Both the position numbers and the translations under genes were made by a program. A DNA stretch of 64,000 bases from Candidatus Wolframiiraptor sinensis. GTDB taxonomy: Archaea; Thermoproteota; Nitrososphaeria_A; Caldarchaeales; Wolframiiraptoraceae. A model generated the notes under the pieces. The model did no database searches and was not told the origin of the DNA. It was given only the letters and a program-made list of their open reading frames with translations. This document shows positions 52,940-64,000 of the stretch, in pieces; position 1 is the first letter of the stretch, and each line of letters opens with the position of its first letter. The stretch spans positions 1-64,000 of the forward strand of contig JALNJX010000004.1 of assembly GCA_023268255.1 (NCBI GenBank). The letters are read 5' to 3'.

Positions 52940-53908
52940 TCACTTCATTATCTTTATCCTTCTTCTATCTATTGTTAGTATCGCCATGGTTATCGCGATC
53001 GCTCCGAAGATTATCATCCTAACATTCAGATCTATTGCGAGCATGCTTAACCCCGAGTCCAGCCACCTGATTATCAACACTCCCAGCAGCGTTCTATGAA
53101 TGCCGCCCACGCCCCCCGTTAACGCCGTCCCTCCGACCACAACGCTCGCGAATAAAGGTATCATGTCGAGAACGCCAACCTGCATGTGAGCCCCCTGAAT
53201 CTGCGACGCATAAAGCACCCCCGCTATGCTGGCCAGCAATGCGCATATCATGAAGACCGCCGTCCTCACCATCTTAACGTTTATCCCCGCTAATCGCGCT
53301 CCAACAATATTTCCGCCCACAGCGTAGATCGCTCGGCCGAAGGGCGTCATGAATGTTAGGAATAAGCATGCCGCCCATATGAGAATGGCCCAGTAGAATA
53401 TTGATGGCAGCCCAAGAATCATTGTTGTTGAAATGGCCCTGAAAGCGGGGTCCGTGATTATTCTAGTATAGCCGCCCGAGATTACTTGGGCTAGCCCTTC
53501 GGCCATCATCGAGGTAGCCAGAGTCGCCATGAAGGAGGGTATGTTAAATCTCGCGAGCAGCGTGCCATTAATGAATCCGAAAATTAAGCCCACGGCAACC
53601 GAGACGAGAATCGAAGAGAATCCCAAAGATGGGTAAAGTATGGCGAAAATCATTGCCGAGAGCTTTAAAACGCTCGGCACTGAGAAATCAAACGACCCCA
53701 TCAGTATTACTAAGGTTAATCCGCACGCGGCGATCAGGAACCATGATGTTCCGTAAATAAGGGTTATCAAGCTATCCCAGCTGGTTAGGAAGTAGGGATT
53801 CGCTATCCTAAGCCCTAGTATCAGCACGATAAACCCGGCAACAGGGATTACCGTGTTGAGATTTCTTTGAAGCCATTCACGGAAAACCCAGACTTGAGCC
53901 ATAGTCAT
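52940..53908 (-). CDS. Sugar ABC transporter permease (RbsC-like)
   Basis: 322 residues with about nine membrane segments. ARFNIPSFMATLATSMMAEGLAQVISGG and GGNIVGARLAGINVKMVRTAVFM are conserved in the branched-chain/sugar permease family, and VVVGGTALTGGVGGIHRTLLGVLII is the coupling-loop signature. It is the last of four genes of an importer (binding protein, ATPase, two permeases) read from 58204 down. Probably takes up a pentose or similar sugar. Confidence 0.9.
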   Translation of the reverse strand: MTMAQVWVFREWLQRNLNTVIPVAGFIVLILGLRIANPYFLTSWDSLITLIYGTSWFLIAACGLTLVILMGSFDFSVPSVLKLSAMIFAILYPSLGFSSILVSVAVGLIFGFINGTLLARFNIPSFMATLATSMMAEGLAQVISGGYTRIITDPAFRAISTTMILGLPSIFYWAILIWAACLFLTFMTPFGRAIYAVGGNIVGARLAGINVKMVRTAVFMICALLASIAGVLYASQIQGAHMQVGVLDMIPLFASVVVGGTALTGGVGGIHRTLLGVLIIRWLDSGLSMLAIDLNVRMIIFGAIAITMAILTIDRRRIKIMK

Positions 53909-53914
53909 CCCTCC

Positions 53915-54907
53915 TCACGCTATCAGAGCTCCCTTAAGGGCTCTGGAAGCAGCTATTACCGCTCCCAGCAGAAGCGTTCCCACATATAACTTGAGGTGAT
54001 TCGGGTCCACGCCCGGCAAAAGGAATAGCCCATTGAAGATAAGGACGTATACCAATGCTCCGAGGAGCGTTCTATGCGGCCCCCCCATGCCGCCTGCGAG
54101 AGGCGTTCCTCCCAGAACTATTGCTGCAAGCCCTCTTATAAGCTCACTTGGATCGAAGTCTACTCTCGTCTGACATCCAAGATGCACGAAAATCGCTATC
54201 GAGCCGAGCCCCGTTAACAGCCCGCTGAGCGTGAAAGCCAGGATCTTATACTTCTCGACATTTATTCCCGCGAGCTTCGCCCCCTCCTCATTAGATCCTA
54301 TAGCGCAGAAGTATGTGCCAAGCTTTGTAAAGAACATGAGGAATAATGCTACTACAATTACCGGTAAAGCCAGTAGGAATGGTGAGGGTAAATAGGGTAT
54401 TGGGGATTCTCTTAGGAAATTGTAAGCGGGAACTGTTAAAGTTAACACCCCAGAAATATTTCTCACGTATGTCGTCAGAAAAGCTAGCAGAGCTGTCATG
54501 GCGAGCGTTAATATGAATGATGGGACCTTAGCCTTCACATGCACCACGCCATTAAAGAGGCCTACCAGTAAGCCGAAGATGGGGTATATTGCTATCGAGG
54601 CAAGGCCTAGATAGGGGTATAACAGCCACACTAGTGCTCCGCCGAACATCCATATGCCCATATATGATACATCGATGGAGCCTAGTAATATCACGAAGGT
54701 CGGCCCTACTGCCAGCATCGAGGTGACCGCGAAGCTTTTCAAAATAGCTACAAAATTGCTTGGCGACAAGAACCTTTCAGGAACTATCGCCGAGAAGATT
54801 ATTACTAATGCTATAATAGCCCATATCGCGGGATTCATTTTAATGAGCTTCCATGCAGAGGTTATTACAACCGCGCCCACTCTTAATTCTTTCAGCCCAC
54901 TCTTCAT
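53915..54907 (-). CDS. Sugar ABC transporter permease (RbsC-like), second
   Basis: 330 residues, about nine membrane segments, paralogous to the downstream permease: GSNEEGAKLAGINVEKYKILAFT and IVLGGTPLAGGMGGPHRTLLGALV. The two likely form a heterodimer channel. The gene starts four bases inside the end of the ATPase gene and ends six bases before the next permease. Confidence 0.9.
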   Translation of the reverse strand: MKSGLKELRVGAVVITSAWKLIKMNPAIWAIIALVIIFSAIVPERFLSPSNFVAILKSFAVTSMLAVGPTFVILLGSIDVSYMGIWMFGGALVWLLYPYLGLASIAIYPIFGLLVGLFNGVVHVKAKVPSFILTLAMTALLAFLTTYVRNISGVLTLTVPAYNFLRESPIPYLPSPFLLALPVIVVALFLMFFTKLGTYFCAIGSNEEGAKLAGINVEKYKILAFTLSGLLTGLGSIAIFVHLGCQTRVDFDPSELIRGLAAIVLGGTPLAGGMGGPHRTLLGALVYVLIFNGLFLLPGVDPNHLKLYVGTLLLGAVIAASRALKGALIA

Positions 54908-56469
54908 AACCCCATCAGCCTCCTGAACTCCTCATTCGTGTATATCGCTTGCACGACTCCGTTCTTTAGAGAAATTATTTTATCGCATAGAATAGCGTAC
55001 TCTTTTGGATCATCGCTTGCGAGTATCATGGCTATGCCATTTCCCTTCATTTCGAGCAGGACCTCATAAATCTCCTCTCTCGCCCCAACATCTATGCCTA
55101 TAGTCGGGTCTTCGAGTATGAGCACCCTTGGGCTCTTTTCAAGCCACTTGCCCACGGACACCTTCTGCTTATTTCCCCCGCTCAGTGAATAGCATTCCGT
55201 CTCCGTGCTCGGTGCTCTTATTCTAAGCTTTTTCATGATTTTCTCCGCCAAAGCCCTCTCAGCATTGAAACTTATCACAGAGATAATTTTTAAGGGTTTC
55301 TTACATACCTTCTCAAAATTCACTAATGACAGATTCTTTCTTATTGGCCAGAAGAGAAATAGCTCCTTTCCGGTTTCTCCCGAGAAATATCCTATACCGA
55401 TCTTAATCCTCGCGTATGGCTCGCTCTTCAATTTCACGTGCTTGCCATCCATTATTATCTCCCCGTGATCCGCGAAGATCTCTCCATAAAGTGCCCTAGC
55501 TATTTCACTTTTACCACATCCTGCTGGGCCGAAGAAGCCTATACACTCTCCTTCGTGTAAATCAAAAGATATGTTTTCGAAGTAACCCTTTTTCGTTAAG
55601 TTACGCACAGAGAGCACTACTCTCTTTCCCTCCGCTTTTCCTACACCATATACATATCTTGCCCATAAGCTGTAATAAGATTCCCTTCCGACAATCTCCC
55701 TGAAAAGCTGATCTTCAGTAACTTTTTCTGATGAGAGATCATGGTGGGCGACCACTTTACCATCTCTCAGCACGTAGATGCGGTCGCTGAATTTCATAAC
55801 CTCCGGAATAATATGAGAGACGAAAATGAATGAGTTGGACTTCTTCAGATTTAGGAGGTAATTGAATAGCGCATCTCTTTCCTCCGTAGAAAGAGGTGCT
55901 GTTGGCTCATCAAGTATTATTATCGGAGTTACTTCTGATTCTCCATCCCCCTCAACCATCAGTTTAACGCTCAATATTGCTCGAGCTATCTCGACCATTT
56001 TCTGGACAGATGGAGGAAGCTCATACATGCTGCTAGCTAAATCGCATTTTATTCCCAGCTCCTCGAAAATTGACTGTGTTAATCCGATTATCTTTCCGAG
56101 TTGCAATCTCCCAAGCTTCGTAAACTTTTCCTCAAGTCCGAGGAAAAGAAACTGGTAAACCTTCAAATGGGGTATGACCCCTCTCTCCTGATATACTATC
56201 GAGATCCCTTTTCTAAGAGCATCTAATGGACTCTTGGGAAACGGTATCCTCCTCCCAAGATAATACATCTCTCCGGAGTCCGGTTGATAGATCCCAACCA
56301 AGATCTTCATTAAGGTAGATTTACCAGCACCATTTTCACCGACAACGCTGATTATCTCGTTTCTTCGTATTTCTATACTAACATTGTCGAGGGCCTTAAC
56401 AACTCTATCAAAAGTCTTTGATATATTTCTTACCTCTAATATGGAGTTTGTTGTACTCATATGTTTCAC
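54904..56469 (-). CDS. Sugar ABC transporter ATPase (RbsA-like), two domains
   Basis: 521 residues, two nucleotide-binding domains. Domain 1: Walker A GENGAGKST, degenerate signature LPPSVQKMVEIARA, Walker B IIILDEPTAPLS. Domain 2: Walker A GPAGCGKSE, signature LSGGNKQKVSVGKWL, and VLILEDPTIGIDVGA, where the usual Asp-Glu of Walker B is swapped to Glu-Asp. In most RbsA/MglA proteins it is domain 2 that loses its Walker A; here domain 1's signature is weak and domain 2's Walker B is altered. It powers the sugar importer. Confidence 0.9.
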   Translation of the reverse strand: MKHMSTTNSILEVRNISKTFDRVVKALDNVSIEIRRNEIISVVGENGAGKSTLMKILVGIYQPDSGEMYYLGRRIPFPKSPLDALRKGISIVYQERGVIPHLKVYQFLFLGLEEKFTKLGRLQLGKIIGLTQSIFEELGIKCDLASSMYELPPSVQKMVEIARAILSVKLMVEGDGESEVTPIIILDEPTAPLSTEERDALFNYLLNLKKSNSFIFVSHIIPEVMKFSDRIYVLRDGKVVAHHDLSSEKVTEDQLFREIVGRESYYSLWARYVYGVGKAEGKRVVLSVRNLTKKGYFENISFDLHEGECIGFFGPAGCGKSEIARALYGEIFADHGEIIMDGKHVKLKSEPYARIKIGIGYFSGETGKELFLFWPIRKNLSLVNFEKVCKKPLKIISVISFNAERALAEKIMKKLRIRAPSTETECYSLSGGNKQKVSVGKWLEKSPRVLILEDPTIGIDVGAREEIYEVLLEMKGNGIAMILASDDPKEYAILCDKIISLKNGVVQAIYTNEEFRRLMGL

Positions 56470-56545
56470 CCGTTTTTCAAGAAAAATAAAGGGGGGTAGG
56501 GAGCTTATATATCCTTAGGCTGGTTTTCTGCGATCTAGCTTGTTT

Positions 56546-58204
56546 CTAGTCCCCCACCTTGCCCCAGATCGGCTCTAGTTTAAGACCTTCTCTCTCAGCA
56601 GCCTTAACCTTCTCCTCGTTCTCCGTCCAGGTGTCCCAGTTGAGGTCAAGGAAGTATTTCATAGTCAATCCGAACTGCTTTCTGAATGATTCGAGGTTCT
56701 CTCCCCTTGTTCTGTCCTCGGTAACCTTCATCCTACCCATCAATGGCACATAGTAGAAGTCGTTTGCTGTTAGGTAGAATTTCGCGTGCCTATCATACGT
56801 GAGGCCCAGCTCCCTGCATTTGCCGATGGAAAGCGTTCTGAAGTCATATGGATACATCTTCGTTGGATATACCTCGCTGATCATGAGGAAATCTAGCAGG
56901 ACGGCAGCATCAACAGGGATGAAGTTCGGGTGCCACCATAATCCAGATGCCTTAATGAGCTCCTCATTCTCCTCCTTTATCTTTGGCGTGGTGAGGTTTA
57001 GGACCGTTGTAACCCAAGGCGATTGCACCATCTCATCCCTGAGGGGATAAGAGGCACCCGTCACCGCATCGTATGTATCCGCGACGCGCTTTCCACCGAA
57101 GTACTGGAATTCTGTGAGTGACGTGATAAACCATTCACCTTTAGCAACCAGCTCAGTGCACGCTACTATTGCGTCCCTTGAGGCTGCAAAGGGGCCGATG
57201 TCTATTCCCCTTTCCTTAAAGACTGAGACCGTTCCCATAGCCTGGTCATCATTGTGGCCCCAAACGGCCTCGTAATCCGTTCTAACAGCCAATGCGTCTT
57301 CTCCGGCTTTTCTGCCTCCTGGATATGCCCATTCACCCCAATAGTGTCCCAGCAGCGTTATGAATGGATACCTCCTCCAAGCTATGGATATTCCTTGATT
57401 GATCAACGCGGTGGAGTCCGGCGCGATGGTCTTTGATGACTGTACATGTAAAACCTTGCTTCTACCATATTTCCTCATCTTCTCGAAGAGCAGGGTCATG
57501 CAGTGGAAGCTCATTTCATCTGACATCGTGCTGAACTCTAGGAACCAGTATGGACCTCTGTCTCCGGGCAATAATGCCGGATCTCTGCACCAGGCGGTTG
57601 CTGCGAATACTTTATTCGCCTCACACAGCTTGACTATTTCCTCCATGGCAGCAAGCGCCGGCGCCCAGTAAACTATGCCCTTAGCGCCGGCAGCGATCAA
57701 CGCATCGGTGGCCTCTATGGCCTTTAGAGCCTCGGCACCGATTTCAATGCCCTTAAATTCCAATTCGAGCTGCTTGCATGCCTGGTCTGCGCCCTGATAA
57801 TCGTACTTGGGCGCCTCCTGGGCTAGAGTCCAAGTAACATATCCTACGAGGAACTTCTCGCCGGGCTTTCCGGTAGCATATCTTTGCGCCAGCTCTCTCC
57901 TCATCTCTGCCAATCCTAGTAATGTTGGAGGGGCTGTTGCGGTGACAGTGACCGTTTCTCTCACAGTTGTTGGAACCGTAACAGTCACTTCGCCTACGGT
58001 AGTAGTAATAGTTTCTGTTACAATTCTCGTTACTGTCTCAGCGGGGGCGGCTGGCTTGGCAAGATATCCCGCAACACCTCCCACGACGAGACCCGCAACG
58101 GCGACTCCAGCTATTTTTGCAGCGGTTCCAATTGCCTTCCTCCTAGTTATCCTCGCATCCAAAACCCCCACTTCCTTCTCTTTTTTCAGCCCTTCTCCAG
58201 ACAT
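56546..58204 (-). CDS. Sugar-binding protein of the ABC importer, Tat-type signal
   Basis: About 552 residues from the ATG at 58204; the open frame extends to 58285, but a TATA box ends 27 bases upstream of this ATG, so the longer start is unlikely. ITRRKAIGTAAKIAGVAVAG has the twin-Arg and hydrophobic core of a Tat signal, then a Thr-rich linker, then a periplasmic-binding fold: KGIVYWAPALAAMEEIV, YEAVWGHNDDQAMGTVSVF and KGEWFITSLTEFQYFGG align with ribose-binding-type proteins. The chain is long, with extra C-terminal residues. Confidence 0.85.
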   Translation of the reverse strand: MSGEGLKKEKEVGVLDARITRRKAIGTAAKIAGVAVAGLVVGGVAGYLAKPAAPAETVTRIVTETITTTVGEVTVTVPTTVRETVTVTATAPPTLLGLAEMRRELAQRYATGKPGEKFLVGYVTWTLAQEAPKYDYQGADQACKQLELEFKGIEIGAEALKAIEATDALIAAGAKGIVYWAPALAAMEEIVKLCEANKVFAATAWCRDPALLPGDRGPYWFLEFSTMSDEMSFHCMTLLFEKMRKYGRSKVLHVQSSKTIAPDSTALINQGISIAWRRYPFITLLGHYWGEWAYPGGRKAGEDALAVRTDYEAVWGHNDDQAMGTVSVFKERGIDIGPFAASRDAIVACTELVAKGEWFITSLTEFQYFGGKRVADTYDAVTGASYPLRDEMVQSPWVTTVLNLTTPKIKEENEELIKASGLWWHPNFIPVDAAVLLDFLMISEVYPTKMYPYDFRTLSIGKCRELGLTYDRHAKFYLTANDFYYVPLMGRMKVTEDRTRGENLESFRKQFGLTMKYFLDLNWDTWTENEEKVKAAEREGLKLEPIWGKVGD

Positions 58205-58230
58205 ACTTACTCGACTACTCTTACGGAAAG

Positions 58231-58243
58231 AGTATAATATAAA
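58231..58243 (-). promoter_or_regulatory. TATA box of the sugar importer operon
   Basis: On the minus strand TTTATATTATACT lies 27-39 bases before the ATG at 58204, implying a leaderless transcript for the binding protein and the genes after it. Confidence 0.6.
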
Positions 58244-58381
58244 CATCTCCACCGCATAATGTCCGGAGGCCGCGCTACTAGCCACCCCCCCTCCCGAGCA
58301 TTTGCCATATCTTCAGACTTATGACTCGAGGCATTAAGAGTATATTAAGGAACGAGGCCGGGAATTACGTCCAGAAGCACC

Positions 58382-60013
58382 ATGTCATCTGAGCGAAGCT
58401 ACATAATTCGTGATCCATTTCTATTGTACCGAGAGGGAGTCCGCGAATCTCATAGGGAGAAGGTGAGGGAGGGAAATATTGAGATTGCGAAGTCCATGGC
58501 TGAGTTCTTAAAGAGCTCTCTGGGACCAATGGGGATGAGCAAGCTCATGATCAATAAATTTGGGGATACAGCCGTCACGAAAGATGGCGCTGTAATTCTC
58601 GACATGATGGATGTATATCATCCAGTTGCTAAATTTCTGAAGGAGACCGCTAAGAGCGTTGAGAGCGCCGTCGGAGATGGCACTAAGACCGCGATAATAT
58701 TGATCGGAGAACTCGTGAAGAGGGCTGAAAGGCTAATGGAAAGCGGGATTCGGCCTGGAACCATAATCAGCGGTTATAAGAGAGCATGCGAGATCGCTCT
58801 GAGCAGCCTGATAAGCTTCTCCAGACCGTTCGATCTGAATAACGATGAATTGATGAAAAATATTATCAGGAACATGCTGAGAACGAGGGGAATTGATGTC
58901 GCCGTCGATCATCTAGCCGATCTCATCATCAAAGCTGTTAACACCGCGATTGAATTCAGGGATGGCAAGGTGATTATAGATAGGGACGTGATACAGGTCG
59001 TTAAGAAGCCTGGTAGAGGTATTCTAGAAAGCGAGCTCATAATGGGTGTTGTCTTAGATAGGGGGCTCGCGCACCCGATGATGCCTAAAAGGATGCTAAA
59101 TGCGAAGGTGGCTCTACTGGATATGGCGCTGAAGGTCGATCCATTTAAGCATCTTCAACCATACAAACGTGAGATACACATTGCCAATGATGAACTTGTA
59201 AAGAAATTCATTGGGGAAGAAGATAAAATTGAGAAAGAGTTTGTTAACCGGATAATCTCCGTTGGGGCTAATGTTGTTATCTGTAGAAGGCGCATTGGTA
59301 ATGTTGCAAAGTACGAACTCGCAAGGGCTGGAGTTATGGCCGTTGAGAGACTGTTAAAGGATGAGCGCATAGAACTGATTGTAAGGGCCACGGGCGCTAT
59401 GAGAATCGCAAACCTTCAAGATCTTAGAGAGGATGATTTGGGGCATGCCGATCTCGTGGAGGAGCGTAAGATCGGAGGGGACAGGATGCTGGTTATTGAA
59501 GGGGGTAGATCATCGAAGATAGCTACGATACTTTTGAGGGGTGATCCGTATCAGGCCGATGAGGTGGAGCGCGCGATAAAGGATTCCGTGGTGATGATCT
59601 CCGCTCTCGCCGCGAAGCCTGCATACGTCCCTGGCGGCGGAGCTATTGAGGAGGCGCTCTCGATAGTCCTTAGGAATGAGTCGCTCAAGTATCCGGGGAG
59701 AGAGCAGATAGCGATCCAAGCGTTCGCGAATTCCCTCGAAGTCATACCCATTCTCCTGGCTAGAAACTCTGGGCTTGATCCGACAACAATCCTGACGGAT
59801 TTAAGGGCCAAGCATGTCAGTGGCATGTGGGAGTATGGTATAGACGCATTCTCCAAGTGCATCGCTAACGTTATCGAGGTGGGGCTGATAGAGCCGCTCG
59901 CCGTTAAAGAACAGATTCTTAAAACATGCACAGAAGTCGCTTCAAGCATCATCAGAATAGACTACGTGGTAGATAGAAGGTATGCCAAGAAGCATCGTGG
60001 AGAAATGCCGTAA
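58382..60013 (+). CDS. Divergent thermosome-family (group II chaperonin) protein
   Basis: 543 residues, the usual length. LKSSLGPMGMSKLMINKFGD and VTKDGAVILDMMDVYHPVAK match the apical-equatorial pattern, and VGDGTKTAIILIGEL is the ATP-site motif, normally GDGTTT, here with Lys for a Thr. VPGGGAIEEALS and ANSLEVIPILLARNSGLDP are kept. The C-terminus (RRYAKKHRGEMP) lacks the Gly-Met tail. Located between the sugar importer (divergent) and a sugar kinase. Probably a specialised paralog; whether it hydrolyses ATP is uncertain. Confidence 0.85.
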   Translation: MSSERSYIIRDPFLLYREGVRESHREKVREGNIEIAKSMAEFLKSSLGPMGMSKLMINKFGDTAVTKDGAVILDMMDVYHPVAKFLKETAKSVESAVGDGTKTAIILIGELVKRAERLMESGIRPGTIISGYKRACEIALSSLISFSRPFDLNNDELMKNIIRNMLRTRGIDVAVDHLADLIIKAVNTAIEFRDGKVIIDRDVIQVVKKPGRGILESELIMGVVLDRGLAHPMMPKRMLNAKVALLDMALKVDPFKHLQPYKREIHIANDELVKKFIGEEDKIEKEFVNRIISVGANVVICRRRIGNVAKYELARAGVMAVERLLKDERIELIVRATGAMRIANLQDLREDDLGHADLVEERKIGGDRMLVIEGGRSSKIATILLRGDPYQADEVERAIKDSVVMISALAAKPAYVPGGGAIEEALSIVLRNESLKYPGREQIAIQAFANSLEVIPILLARNSGLDPTTILTDLRAKHVSGMWEYGIDAFSKCIANVIEVGLIEPLAVKEQILKTCTEVASSIIRIDYVVDRRYAKKHRGEMP

Positions 60014-60103: not shown

Positions 60104-61651
60104 ATGTCGCCTCAATACTTTATCGGCGTCGATATAGGGACTACTGGGACTAAAGCGACTATAGTCGATGAGGAGGGGAGGCAGCTTGCCATAGCTTATG
60201 AGGAGTCAAAGCTCTATTACCCGAGGGTTGGATGGGTTGAGCAGAAGCCCGAGGATTTCTATTCCTCTACGAGGAATACCGTGAATGAAGTCTTGAGGAA
60301 GTCTCGCGTTGATCCGAGGGATGTCGCCTCCATAGCCTTCAGCGGCCAGATGGCCGGCATACTCGCGATAGATAGGAACTGGAACCACGTGATACCGTAT
60401 GACTCGTGGCTGGATATAAGATGCAAGAAGTATATCGACATGTTGATGGAGGGGTATGCCGATCTTTTGATAGAGATCACGGGCGTGCCTCCGACAGTTG
60501 ATCATCTTCCCAAGATGATGTGGTGGAAGAATGAGAGACCGGAGATATTTGAGAGGATTTACAAGTTTACCGTCCCGGCGGTTTATGTTGCCGGCAGGCT
60601 AGCAGGGCTCAGCGGTGATGACGCCTTCTATGACTACACCTATGTTACCTTCACCGGGTTATTCGATATCAGGAGGATGGAGTGGTCTGAAGAGCTTAGC
60701 AGAACTTTCGGCATCCCGCTTGATAAGCTTCCTAAGGTCGTGAGACCGTGGGATATCGTGGGCGAGCTGACTTCCGATGAAGCTGAGAAACTCGGCCTTG
60801 TCAAGGGGATACCCGTTGTTGCTGGAGCGGGCGATGGCATGGCATGCTCTCTTGGAGCCGGTCTCACGGAGCCGGGAATATGCCTCGACATAGCTGGAAC
60901 CGCATCAGCATTCTACGTTTCGGTGGACGCGATAGTCCCGGACACCAAGCATAGGACTCTGCTCCACCTGAAGTCCGTTGTTCCGGAGCTATGGAATATC
61001 GGGGCCTACATCAATGGTGGAGGACTTTGCTTGAGGTGGTTTAGGGATGAGATCGCGAGAGATGTCAAGATGGAGGCGGAGAGGAGGGGCGTGGATCCAT
61101 ATAAACTCCTAGATGAAATGGCCTCAAAGATTCCAGAGGGCTCTGAGGGCCTCTTCTTCATACCGCATCTCGGCGGCAGGGCTTATCCATATAATCCAAA
61201 GCTGCGCGGCATATGGGTTGGATACACCTGGAAGCATACCATGGCGCACTTCTACAGGTCAATCTTGGAGGGAATAGCCTACGAGTACTTTCACTACTTG
61301 AAGATCTTGAAGGAGCTCCTGAAAAGCGTGAAGATCACAGAGGTTAGAGGAATAGGCGGTGGAAGCAAAAGTCCTATATGGAATCAGATTAAAGCCGATA
61401 TACTCGGAGTACCATATATACTATTGAATCAGGAGGAGCTCGCCGCCTTAGCTCTCGCGGTCATCGGAGGATATGCTGTCAAAGCCTTCAAAGATTACAA
61501 GACGACAATAAATGAATGGGTTAAGCCTATCAAGAGAATCGAGCCGAGAGAGGAGATCCACGAGAAATACCTGCAATACGCAGAGTTTTACGAAAGGCTG
61601 ATAGAGAAATCGGATGAGCTTTTCGAGGGCCATGAAAAATTAATCGAATAG
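60104..61651 (+). CDS. FGGY-family carbohydrate kinase (xylulokinase-like)
   Basis: 515 residues. GVDIGTTGTKATIVDEEG is the N-terminal phosphate-binding motif, AFSGQMAGILAID and ITGVPPTVDHLPKMMWWKNERPEIF match xylulokinase, and GAGDGMACSLGAG and RGIGGGSKSPIWNQIKAD the C-terminal ATP site. It phosphorylates a sugar such as xylulose. It follows the chaperonin gene after a T6 run (60085-60090) and lies near a sugar importer, suggesting a shared pathway; exact substrate unknown. Confidence 0.88.
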   Translation: MSPQYFIGVDIGTTGTKATIVDEEGRQLAIAYEESKLYYPRVGWVEQKPEDFYSSTRNTVNEVLRKSRVDPRDVASIAFSGQMAGILAIDRNWNHVIPYDSWLDIRCKKYIDMLMEGYADLLIEITGVPPTVDHLPKMMWWKNERPEIFERIYKFTVPAVYVAGRLAGLSGDDAFYDYTYVTFTGLFDIRRMEWSEELSRTFGIPLDKLPKVVRPWDIVGELTSDEAEKLGLVKGIPVVAGAGDGMACSLGAGLTEPGICLDIAGTASAFYVSVDAIVPDTKHRTLLHLKSVVPELWNIGAYINGGGLCLRWFRDEIARDVKMEAERRGVDPYKLLDEMASKIPEGSEGLFFIPHLGGRAYPYNPKLRGIWVGYTWKHTMAHFYRSILEGIAYEYFHYLKILKELLKSVKITEVRGIGGGSKSPIWNQIKADILGVPYILLNQEELAALALAVIGGYAVKAFKDYKTTINEWVKPIKRIEPREEIHEKYLQYAEFYERLIEKSDELFEGHEKLIE

Positions 61652-61851: not shown

Positions 61852-63714
61852 ATGGAGGCCTCCGACCTGCGTAAATGGAAGGGGCTCACTGGAAAGCTTC
61901 TGAGAATAAACCTCTCAACGAGGAAGATAATGATCGAGGAGATACCCTTCTCATGGGTTCAAAGGTATCTGGGGGGGAGGGGGCTTGCGGCGAGATACTA
62001 TTATGAGGAGGTTGGGCCGGATGTTGACCCGCTCTCTCCGGAGAATAAGCTGATCTTCATGAACGGGATAATGACGGGCGCTCCGGCATTCGGGTCGACG
62101 AAAGCGTATATCGTTGCGAAGTCCCCTCTTACTGGGCATTATTCGGTAACCAATGCGGGTGGATATTTTGGGGTTAACTTGAAATGGGCTGGATATGACG
62201 GGATTATTATTGAGAGTAGGGCTGATAGCCCAGTCTACATCTCGATAATCGATGATGAGGTTGAGATAAGGGATGCTAGCGGGTTCTGGGGAATGATGAC
62301 GCAGGAGGCGCAAGATGCCATTAGGGAGGAGGTTGGCGATAAGCGAGCATCCGTCGCTTGCATAGGGCCTGCCGGAGAAAGACTTTCGAAGATCGCGTCG
62401 GTTATGGCTGATCACTCGAGTAGGAGGGGTGGAGCTTTTGGAAGAGGGGGATTCGGCGCCATCATGGGATCTAAGAATCTCAAGGGAATAGCGGTTCTTG
62501 GGACGAAGGGGGTGGATCTCGCCGATCCAGACGGTCTGAGAGAGTACTTGAAAGATCATATAAAGCAGCTCAGGGAGACGACCGGGAACCATACAAGATA
62601 CGGCACGCTCCAGTATGTCGAGCCGCTGTATGAGTTAGGAGCATATCCGCTCATGAATTTCACGAGGACGAGGATCGATGATGAGTCTCTCATCAGGAAC
62701 CTCTCGACAGAGGCTATGAGAAGCCGATACCTCGTTAGGGATGTAGCGTGCGCAAACTGCCCAGTCGCTTGTGGGAAATTCCTGGAAGCGAAAGAGGGCT
62801 CTTGGAGCGGATACAGGTGTAAGGTTGAATATGAGACCCTTTGGTCCCTTGGGCCGCACTGTGGAGTATTCGACTACAACGTCGTGATAGCAGCTCATCA
62901 AATCGTAGATGAGTATGGCTTTGATGGTATCTCGGCGGGCTATGCTGTTGGATTCGCCATGGAGCTTTATGAGCGCGGGATCATAGATAGGGAGTTCACC
63001 GGGGGGCTCGACCTGAGATTCGGTAATGGTGAGGCTGAAATAGAGATGCTCAAACTCATGGGCGAGAGGAAGGGAGTTGGAGATATCTTCGCCGATGGCG
63101 CTGTCGCGGCCGCGGAGAGAATTGGAAAAGACTCAATAAGATACGTCATGCACGTTAAGAGGCAGGAGTTCGCCGCCTACGAGCCCAGAGCATTCTACGG
63201 CATCGGACTGGCTTATGCGACATCATCGAGGGGTGCCTGCCACAATGTCGGCGGCTGGACGATTAGAGATGAGCTCCTCAAGCCCAGAATCGATAGATTC
63301 GCCATAAGAGGCAAGGGCAGGCTCGTCAAAAGCATACAGGATGTCAGGGCCTACATAGACTCGATCGCCTTATGCACGATCCCGAGAAGATCTCTGAACC
63401 TCACCGATGATCCGAGCCCCGAGGTCGTTAACTACATCACGGGCGCTGGGCTTACTGGGGCGGATCTATTGATAGCCGGCGAGAGGATATACACGCTCGA
63501 GAGGATGATCTTGAATCGCGAGGGAATAACGAGAAAAGATGATCTATTGCCCCCTAGAATAATGTATGAGCCTGTTCCGGATGGCCCCGCCAAGGGGCAC
63601 AGGATATCGCCTGCGATGCTCGATTTCATGCTCGATGAGTATTATGAGGCGAGAGGCTGGAGCCGAGATGGAATAGTGACAGAAGAGACTAAGAAAAGGC
63701 TTGAAATGATCTAG
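61852..63714 (+). CDS. Aldehyde:ferredoxin oxidoreductase (tungsten)
   Basis: 620 residues. GKLLRINLSTRKIMIEEIP opens the family, GRGGFGAIMGSKNLKGIAVLG binds the tungstopterin, CANCPVACG supplies three Cys of the 4Fe-4S cluster and SIALCTIP the fourth. Oxidises aldehydes to acids and reduces ferredoxin. It may take glyceraldehyde or another sugar-derived aldehyde, as its neighbours are sugar kinase and phosphoglucose isomerase genes. TATA-like GGTTTATGATG lies about 40 bases upstream, then GAGG before the ATG. Confidence 0.92.
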   Translation: MEASDLRKWKGLTGKLLRINLSTRKIMIEEIPFSWVQRYLGGRGLAARYYYEEVGPDVDPLSPENKLIFMNGIMTGAPAFGSTKAYIVAKSPLTGHYSVTNAGGYFGVNLKWAGYDGIIIESRADSPVYISIIDDEVEIRDASGFWGMMTQEAQDAIREEVGDKRASVACIGPAGERLSKIASVMADHSSRRGGAFGRGGFGAIMGSKNLKGIAVLGTKGVDLADPDGLREYLKDHIKQLRETTGNHTRYGTLQYVEPLYELGAYPLMNFTRTRIDDESLIRNLSTEAMRSRYLVRDVACANCPVACGKFLEAKEGSWSGYRCKVEYETLWSLGPHCGVFDYNVVIAAHQIVDEYGFDGISAGYAVGFAMELYERGIIDREFTGGLDLRFGNGEAEIEMLKLMGERKGVGDIFADGAVAAAERIGKDSIRYVMHVKRQEFAAYEPRAFYGIGLAYATSSRGACHNVGGWTIRDELLKPRIDRFAIRGKGRLVKSIQDVRAYIDSIALCTIPRRSLNLTDDPSPEVVNYITGAGLTGADLLIAGERIYTLERMILNREGITRKDDLLPPRIMYEPVPDGPAKGHRISPAMLDFMLDEYYEARGWSRDGIVTEETKKRLEMI

Positions 63715-63729
63715 CACGAGGTGAGTGCG

Positions 63730-64000
63730 GTGAACTCCGAGTCGATTCTGAAGGCGGTCAAGCTCGATTTAAAGAAATACACTATGAATCCTGCCACGCG
63801 TAAGAGAGAGGTTAGGCTCAGCGAGTTAAAGGAATATTTTAGCAACCCGGAGGCGGCTGATAGGATTCTCTCATCAGGGCGGGACCCCGTGGTATACGAG
63901 TACTACGAATACTCCGTTGAAGAGGCTGTGGGACACATGACCTTAGGGCTGACGATAATTTACCCCGGGAAGGTTGGCAAAGAGTACTTCATGACTAGGG
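63730..64000 (+). CDS. Cupin-type glucose-6-phosphate isomerase, N-terminal part
   Basis: Starts at the GTG at 63730, with GAGGTGA four bases upstream; an in-frame GTG at 63721 is less likely. The 90 residues before the window edge include RDPVVYEYYEY and LTIIYPGKVGKEYFMTR, which match the start of the archaeal cupin phosphoglucose isomerase; the metal-binding His cluster lies beyond the edge. It interconverts glucose 6-phosphate and fructose 6-phosphate. Lies 15 bases after the aldehyde oxidoreductase gene, so probably co-transcribed. Confidence 0.85.
   Translation, partial: MNSESILKAVKLDLKKYTMNPATRKREVRLSELKEYFSNPEAADRILSSGRDPVVYEYYEYSVEEAVGHMTLGLTIIYPGKVGKEYFMTR

Follow-up and report, generated by a model that had tools for sequence, protein, structure and literature searches.

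A divergent thermosome paralog bound to an FGGY-family kinase gene in Caldarchaeales

The window, a stretch of 64,000 nucleotides from Candidatus Wolframiiraptor sinensis, encodes a divergent thermosome (group II chaperonin) paralog of 543 amino acids (58382..60013, + strand), recognised by its open reading frame, Pfam match, tree position and profile search. It belongs to a distinct clade of paralogs, whose genes are followed directly and in the same orientation, at all 12 loci, by a gene for an FGGY-family carbohydrate kinase (60104..61651, + strand, in the window; open reading frame, family search and neighbourhood comparison); the other flanks differ. We propose, tentatively and with a confidence just short of even, that the paralog is dedicated to folding or assembling one module that takes up and phosphorylates a sugar (or polyol), with the kinase as its most likely client. 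When the smaller chances of the importer and of a neighbouring oxidoreductase are added to that of the kinase, it seems probable from the sequences that the cassette has, for one of its parts, a chaperonin of its own.

The reading frame of the paralog is unbroken in the window sequence and its translation, and a Cpn60_TCP1 domain spans residues 40–531 (Pfam, 463.5–463.6 bits against a cut-off of 34.3). Among NCBIfam models the protein passes NF041083 (491.4 against 400 bits) and NF041082 (490.2 against 450 bits), misses the cut-off of TIGR02339, thermosome_arch (492.5 against 671.1 bits), and scores at most 88 bits with GroEL models, the cut-offs of which are at least 352, so that it is not a group I sequence. 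An AlphaFold2 model with a mean pLDDT of 79, low at residues 1–26, 58–75 and 528–543 (N terminus, stem loop and tail), predicts the three-domain thermosome fold, and its best Foldseek matches are the thermosomes of T. acidophilum and KS-1, with TM scores of 0.81–0.83. Fold, domain order and the catalytic and Mg-binding aspartates are shared with the ordinary archaeal beta and alpha subunits described by NF041083, NF041082 and TIGR02339. The clade differs from these in a P-loop lysine, an arginine in place of the sensing lysine, an apical insertion, a fixed basic tail, a basic net charge and a gene bound to a cassette.

The source assembly (10 contigs, 1.23 Mb, 92.7% complete) holds three Cpn60_TCP1 genes. 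A preliminary description of the window had called the protein a specialised paralog and had suggested looking for ordinary thermosome genes elsewhere in the genome; two were found, which excludes that the paralog is the only thermosome gene. One, C2:273721 (654.7 bits), has the motifs SDGATIL and GDGTTT, and the other, C5:5866 (622.3 bits), has NDGATIL and GDGTTS, both ordinary; the window protein is 46% and 41% identical to the two, and 75% identical to its match in Candidatus Wolframiiraptor gerlachensis of the same genus. A tree of 86 thermosome proteins (111 rows minus 4 partial and 21 near-duplicate or redundant ones) unites the 12 paralogs and two further, fourth paralogs in one group with an SH-aLRT support of 100. 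The branch leading to it is 1.04 changes per site long, so that the clade is, on this phylogeny, fast-evolving and well supported. Its neighbours in the tree, with a support of 90, are the order's ordinary subunits of beta type; because the branch is long and the tree method quick, this exact placement is less sure than the clade itself.

A profile built from the 12 clade proteins and run against 398 genomes of the phylum recovers these 12 at 883–972 bits, and the best other protein among the matches listed reaches at most 638 bits. The clade occurs in 12 of the 44 genomes of the order Caldarchaeales (formerly Aigarchaeota); it is absent from all others among the 398 phylum genomes sampled. 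Five carriers belong to the genus of the source genome (G000, G001, G003, G005 and G007), four to another genus of the same family (G011, G016, G018 and G020) and three to two further families (G025 and G038; G037). Within the order, 29 of the 44 genomes are at least 90% complete, and of these 9 carry the module and 20 are without it; absences are weaker in the remaining 12 non-carrier genomes, which are less than 90% complete.

Residues were compared between the 12 clade rows and 83 ordinary rows, leaving out three fourth paralogs, three other partial sequences and ten very divergent paralogs; for the apical and N-terminal regions the three partial rows were included, giving 86 ordinary rows. 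The ATP-binding P-loop, GDGTKT (residues 98–103; 58673..58690, + strand), and the KDGAVIL of the stem loop (residues 67–73) are present as the preliminary description had read them. The lysine at position 102, where 81 of 83 ordinary rows have threonine, is invariant in the clade (12 of 12), but GDGTK also appears in two ordinary rows, both from outside the order, so that the motif taken as distinctive is not wholly private to the clade. The described change from NDGATIL to KDGAVIL is likewise seen in the window protein, within the stem-loop motif AVTKDGAVIL (residues 64–73; 58571..58600, + strand), but its lysine is not a conserved trait: the residue preceding Asp68 is R in 4, S in 3, N in 3 and K in 2 of the 12 clade rows. 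The catalytic aspartate at 68 is kept in the window protein and in 9 of 12 clade rows, the other three having histidine, as opposed to 83 of 83 ordinary rows with aspartate. Asp99, the Mg-binding residue of GDG, and Asp401 are present in all 12 clade rows, and the alignment shows the window protein to keep the Mg-binding and both catalytic aspartates. At residue 169 (58886..58888, + strand), a nucleotide-sensing position by alignment (compare parts of PMC5635000), 11 of 12 clade rows have arginine and all 83 ordinary rows have lysine.

According to parts of the account of a bacterial group III chaperonin (PMC5635000), Asp56 and Asp373 are catalytic, Asp87 holds Mg, Thr89–91 contact the phosphates, Thr90 contacts ADP, and a change of Arg155 to lysine is tolerated without loss. 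Given the residue correspondence with this chaperonin, made by our own reading of the alignment against parts of that account, ATP binding would be retained in the clade and the ATP cycle would be altered, perhaps at ADP release. Only the three proteins with His68 are plausible candidates for having lost hydrolysis.

Away from the nucleotide site, the alignment identified four further clade-specific elements. The N-terminal motif IIRD (residues 8–11; 58403..58414, + strand), with I9 and R10 in 12 of 12 and D11 in 11 of 12 clade rows, differs from the consensus of the 86 ordinary rows. Four residues, FKHL in the window protein (255–258; 59144..59155, + strand) and F, K/R, H, L across the clade, are inserted in the apical domain and followed by invariant Q259, P260 and K262. 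Also apical are the replacements of Q302 by R and of G304 by R or K (59285..59293, + strand), each in 12 of 12 clade rows, where ordinary rows have Q (84 of 85) and G (85 of 85). The conserved basic C-terminal tail, DRRYAKKHRGEMP (59972..60010, + strand), follows the pattern DRRYAKxHxGE in all 12 clade rows and in none of the 83 ordinary rows. The preliminary description had pointed to a missing Gly-Met tail, and none is present, but this absence sets nothing apart: both ordinary genes of the source genome lack such a tail as well, and of the 64 rows of ordinary thermosomes from the order just one ends in a GGM-like sequence. Net charge runs from −1 to +11 in the clade and from −24 to +2 (mean −11) in ordinary rows. 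Altered residues, insertion, terminal motifs and charge are features that one would expect of a changed client surface.

Reading frames are intact in all 12 clade members. The clade is under purifying selection, dN/dS being about 0.080 for the pair G001/G003, the only one used since dS is saturated in several pairs. Decay of the paralog to a pseudogene is ruled out by the unbroken frames and the low dN/dS.

The kinase follows the paralog after a gap of 26–163 bp by ORF starts, the 26 coming from a probably over-long ORF in G001. A separate kinase promoter could fit in this gap, which leaves co-transcription of the two genes a possibility only. Among the 44 genomes, those with a kinase ortholog (71–100% identity) are precisely the 12 with the paralog, and the kinase beside the paralog is unbroken in each of them. 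Second kinase copies exist in G003, with a stop, and in G007, at 64–67% identity; the G007 copy (64%) has no chaperonin beside it. Outside the order, G229 alone among the 398 phylum genomes has relatives of the kinase at E ≤ 1e-120 (50–52% identity); they sit in a similar oxidoreductase cassette, and no chaperonin was found in the 20 kb read. The best NCBIfam model of the kinase is XylB, at 296.5 bits against a cut-off of 380.25, and no substrate is assigned to the cassette because of this shortfall. An inositol-type pathway (Gfo/Idh, Zn-ADH, TIM-barrel isomerase and kinase) was a candidate reading of the cassette that was set aside; a search of the open-access literature found nothing for it. 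Net charges of the kinases are −12 to 0 in the 12 genomes, and +2 and +13 for the two kinases of G229; a complementarity of charge between paralog and kinase is only a hint, since many cytosolic enzymes are acidic.

On the other side of the paralog, and divergent from it, lies an importer on the minus strand (52940-58285), so that the gene does stand between a sugar importer and a sugar kinase, as had been described. The importer comprises a sugar-type substrate-binding protein (56546..58285, − strand; family search and ortholog distribution), the real start of which is probably about 35 codons inside, an ATPase with two ATP-binding domains (54904..56469, − strand) and two permeases (53915..54907 and 52940..53908, both − strand), the last three assigned by family search and neighbourhoods. 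Orthologs of the binding protein (82–100% identity) are confined, among the 44 genomes, to the 12 with paralog and kinase and are present in every one of these. They lie nearby in 9 carriers, at a distance of about 16 kb in G020, and in G007 and G016 on contigs other than that of the paralog. The tie to sugar genes proposed earlier, with co-occurrence as its check, is thus borne out: across the order's 44 genomes, the paralog is present or absent together with kinase and binding protein. In a comparison aimed at an operator shared by importer and chaperonin, the spacers between them in four Wolframiiraptor genomes aligned poorly.

Downstream of the kinase, family searches identified an aldehyde:ferredoxin oxidoreductase (AOR) of the tungsten enzyme family (61852..63714, + strand) and a cupin-type phosphoglucose-isomerase-like protein (63721..64000, + strand), which continues to about contig base 64311. 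The cupin isomerase is found in the 12 carriers, G004 and G030. AOR orthologs (62–100% identity) occur in the locus with the paralog in 9 of 12 carriers, and in G004; no match at E ≤ 1e-100 was found in G025, G037 or G038, which are carriers of other families. In G004, which is 70% complete, the AOR is 73% identical, and the clade chaperonin, the kinase ortholog and the importer binding protein were not found.

Mapped on a tree of the ordinary alpha subunit, presence and absence require at least 6 changes, 3 of which are forced by strongly supported branches. This tree includes 39 of the 44 genomes and 11 of the 12 carriers, G006, G013, G037, G039 and G043 being left out for want of a full alpha sequence. 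Paired contrasts of chaperonin and kinase all agree because the two genome sets are identical; with 3 independent pairs a sign test cannot reach significance, and the contrasts are descriptive. Neighbourhood comparison shows that cassettes relocate and vanish as blocks. G030, from the genus of G025 and G038, keeps two cassette genes, those of the F420-type enzyme and of the cupin isomerase (which a contig end splits), along with that of the 2-hydroxyacid dehydrogenase, and chaperonin, kinase and importer are all absent there, at the locus and genome-wide; a radical-SAM gene comes after the F420-type gene in G030, and the same gene comes after the importer in G038.

In our preferred reading, the paralog arose by duplication of a beta-type thermosome subunit within Caldarchaeales and would assemble into a thermosome-like ring, in which the nascent kinase would be recognised by the altered apical domain and by a chamber that is basic and carries fixed motifs from the N and C termini. 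ATP would cycle with changed kinetics owing to the P-loop lysine beside the phosphates. It is from the comparisons above that we infer ring formation, client identity and the ATPase change. Co-occurrence cannot choose the client, as binding protein and kinase both match the distribution of the paralog without exception; the kinase is favoured because it is adjacent at 12 of 12 loci, even where the importer lies elsewhere. Kinase homologs with no adjoining chaperonin (in G229, and the second copy of G007) count against it, as does a fourth paralog within the clade that lies by a different importer with no adjoining FGGY kinase.

In G001 and G003 the fourth paralog (L131:11529-13808 and L132:3-1289) lies beside a ureidoglycolate-lyase-family gene and a second importer of sugar type, near genes that resemble those of histidine biosynthesis; that of G007 is at a contig end. 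The G001 protein has GDGTKT and falls inside the clade, and the G003 piece is partial, without the P-loop part, and was left out of the tree. The binding protein at the G001 locus was found in G001 and G003 alone. By its gene neighbourhoods, the clade has become attached a second time to an uptake cassette, which keeps alive the reading in which the importer (binding protein, ATPase or permease), instead of the kinase, is the client. We rate that reading as quite unlikely: the exact match of the binding protein to the 12 carriers and this second importer without an FGGY gene speak for it, but the importer can be distant or on another contig where the kinase remains adjacent, and its binding protein is probably exported. 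The preliminary description had offered the large tungsten enzyme next door as the client. Beyond the shared locus in 9 of 12 carriers, genome distribution speaks against an assembly factor for the AOR, since three carriers yield no match at E ≤ 1e-100, G004 has the ortholog without the chaperonin, and many other AOR paralogs of the order occur without a clade chaperonin; the idea was rejected on this distribution, its chance being close to negligible.

Two readings do without a dedicated client. The protein may be a conditional subunit of the general thermosome, made with the sugar genes, that joins alpha and beta in mixed rings and shifts the clients or the ATP cycle during growth on the substrate, which we hold unlikely. 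Its apparent descent from a beta-type subunit fits, its basic charge could pair with acidic ordinary subunits, and the TF55 of Sulfolobales mixes subunits; against this, the clade is changed at terminal and stem-loop positions that, we presume, usually make subunit contacts, and a general role does not explain why the gene is tied to the same kinase gene at 12 of 12 loci. It is very improbable that an ordinary general chaperonin was inserted once in the cassette and inherited along with it. One insertion would yield the same adjacency in cassettes that move and vanish as blocks, but flanks have been rearranged repeatedly with the chaperonin–kinase pair kept, and neither the changes invariant in 12 of 12 rows, the apical insertion and the fixed tail nor purifying selection on a gene redundant beside two ordinary ones would be expected of a general chaperonin.

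Archaeal thermosomes are seen as general folding machines. Dedicated chaperonins borne on operons are already known in group I, as are dedicated divergent group II proteins in vertebrates. Bacterial monooxygenase operons have MmoG-type chaperonins in their gene order. The likeness to MimG and MmoG is that a chaperonin paralog is encoded with one catabolic enzyme; they are group I, with diiron monooxygenase clients and an experimentally shown role, whereas the window paralog is group II, lies beside a sugar kinase and has a putative role. MimG is needed for active propane monooxygenase (parts of PMC7570240, citing Furuya 2013). BBS6, BBS10 and BBS12, vertebrate chaperonin-like proteins with a dedicated part in assembly, are likewise divergent relatives within group II; their changes are much larger, and the window paralog keeps both catalytic aspartates. 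The genes of these three are listed in part of PMC5220055. CCT/TRiC, with eight subunits and many clients, resembles the proposed system as a group II chaperonin that serves an actin-fold protein; here the client is a candidate. Like actin, FGGY kinases have the ASKHA (actin-like ATPase) fold; this, with the role of CCT towards actin, makes the idea of the kinase as client attractive, not proven. Actin is given as a first CCT substrate in part of PMC9720267. A fuller version seems possible but somewhat doubtful: a group II chaperonin for one client, an actin-fold (ASKHA) sugar kinase, with a reversed-charge chamber, fixed termini and an ATP site retuned by lysine, copied again in Wolframiiraptor for a second importer cassette, would be a prokaryotic parallel to CCT and actin.

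Methanosarcina acetivorans reportedly has divergent group II chaperonins in addition to the standard archaeal complement (Maeder 2005, cited in PMC5220055), and in this they resemble the window paralog; we know of no link between them and a single pathway. In the open-access literature, with subscription journals outside the scope, no thermosome paralog with a sugar kinase, xylulokinase or FGGY protein was found, and 'thermosome' and 'chaperon' are absent from the main text of the Wolframiiraptor paper. Together with close relatives that lack both genes, the 12 genomes in which the paralog is bound to the kinase gene form a set with which to ask which residues make a chaperonin specific, and whether actin-fold proteins recurrently drive chaperonin specialisation.

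Several minor observations concern related genes. One of the two paired kinases of G229 (L145:6364-7911) has AGAGNQ in place of AGAGDG, and it may be inactive because its asparagine stands at what we take to be the usual position of the catalytic aspartate. Further FGGY kinase genes, L134:9246-10793 (G003), G000:C4:71127-72629 and G000:C1:83995-85385, are broken by in-frame stops in Wolframiiraptor genomes. A very divergent third Cpn60 paralog of about 600 amino acids, 29–31% identical to the window protein, is present in 6 of 6 genomes of one genus (L091, L092 and L093 in G012, G019 and G021; similar matches in G009, G015 and G017), and the three aligned proteins have the P-loop GDGAVYT and have lost the second catalytic aspartate. 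In G031 (L097-L101), another genome of the order, there are six Cpn60 matches, of which several are strongly divergent; they lie on different contigs or at large distances from one another. Finally, a large-subunit rRNA gene beside the cassette, about 1.5 kb beyond the window end (L136:1494-5355, contig C4), spans 3862 bases against a model of 2987 positions; the excess of about 0.9 kb is probably made up of introns or insertions.
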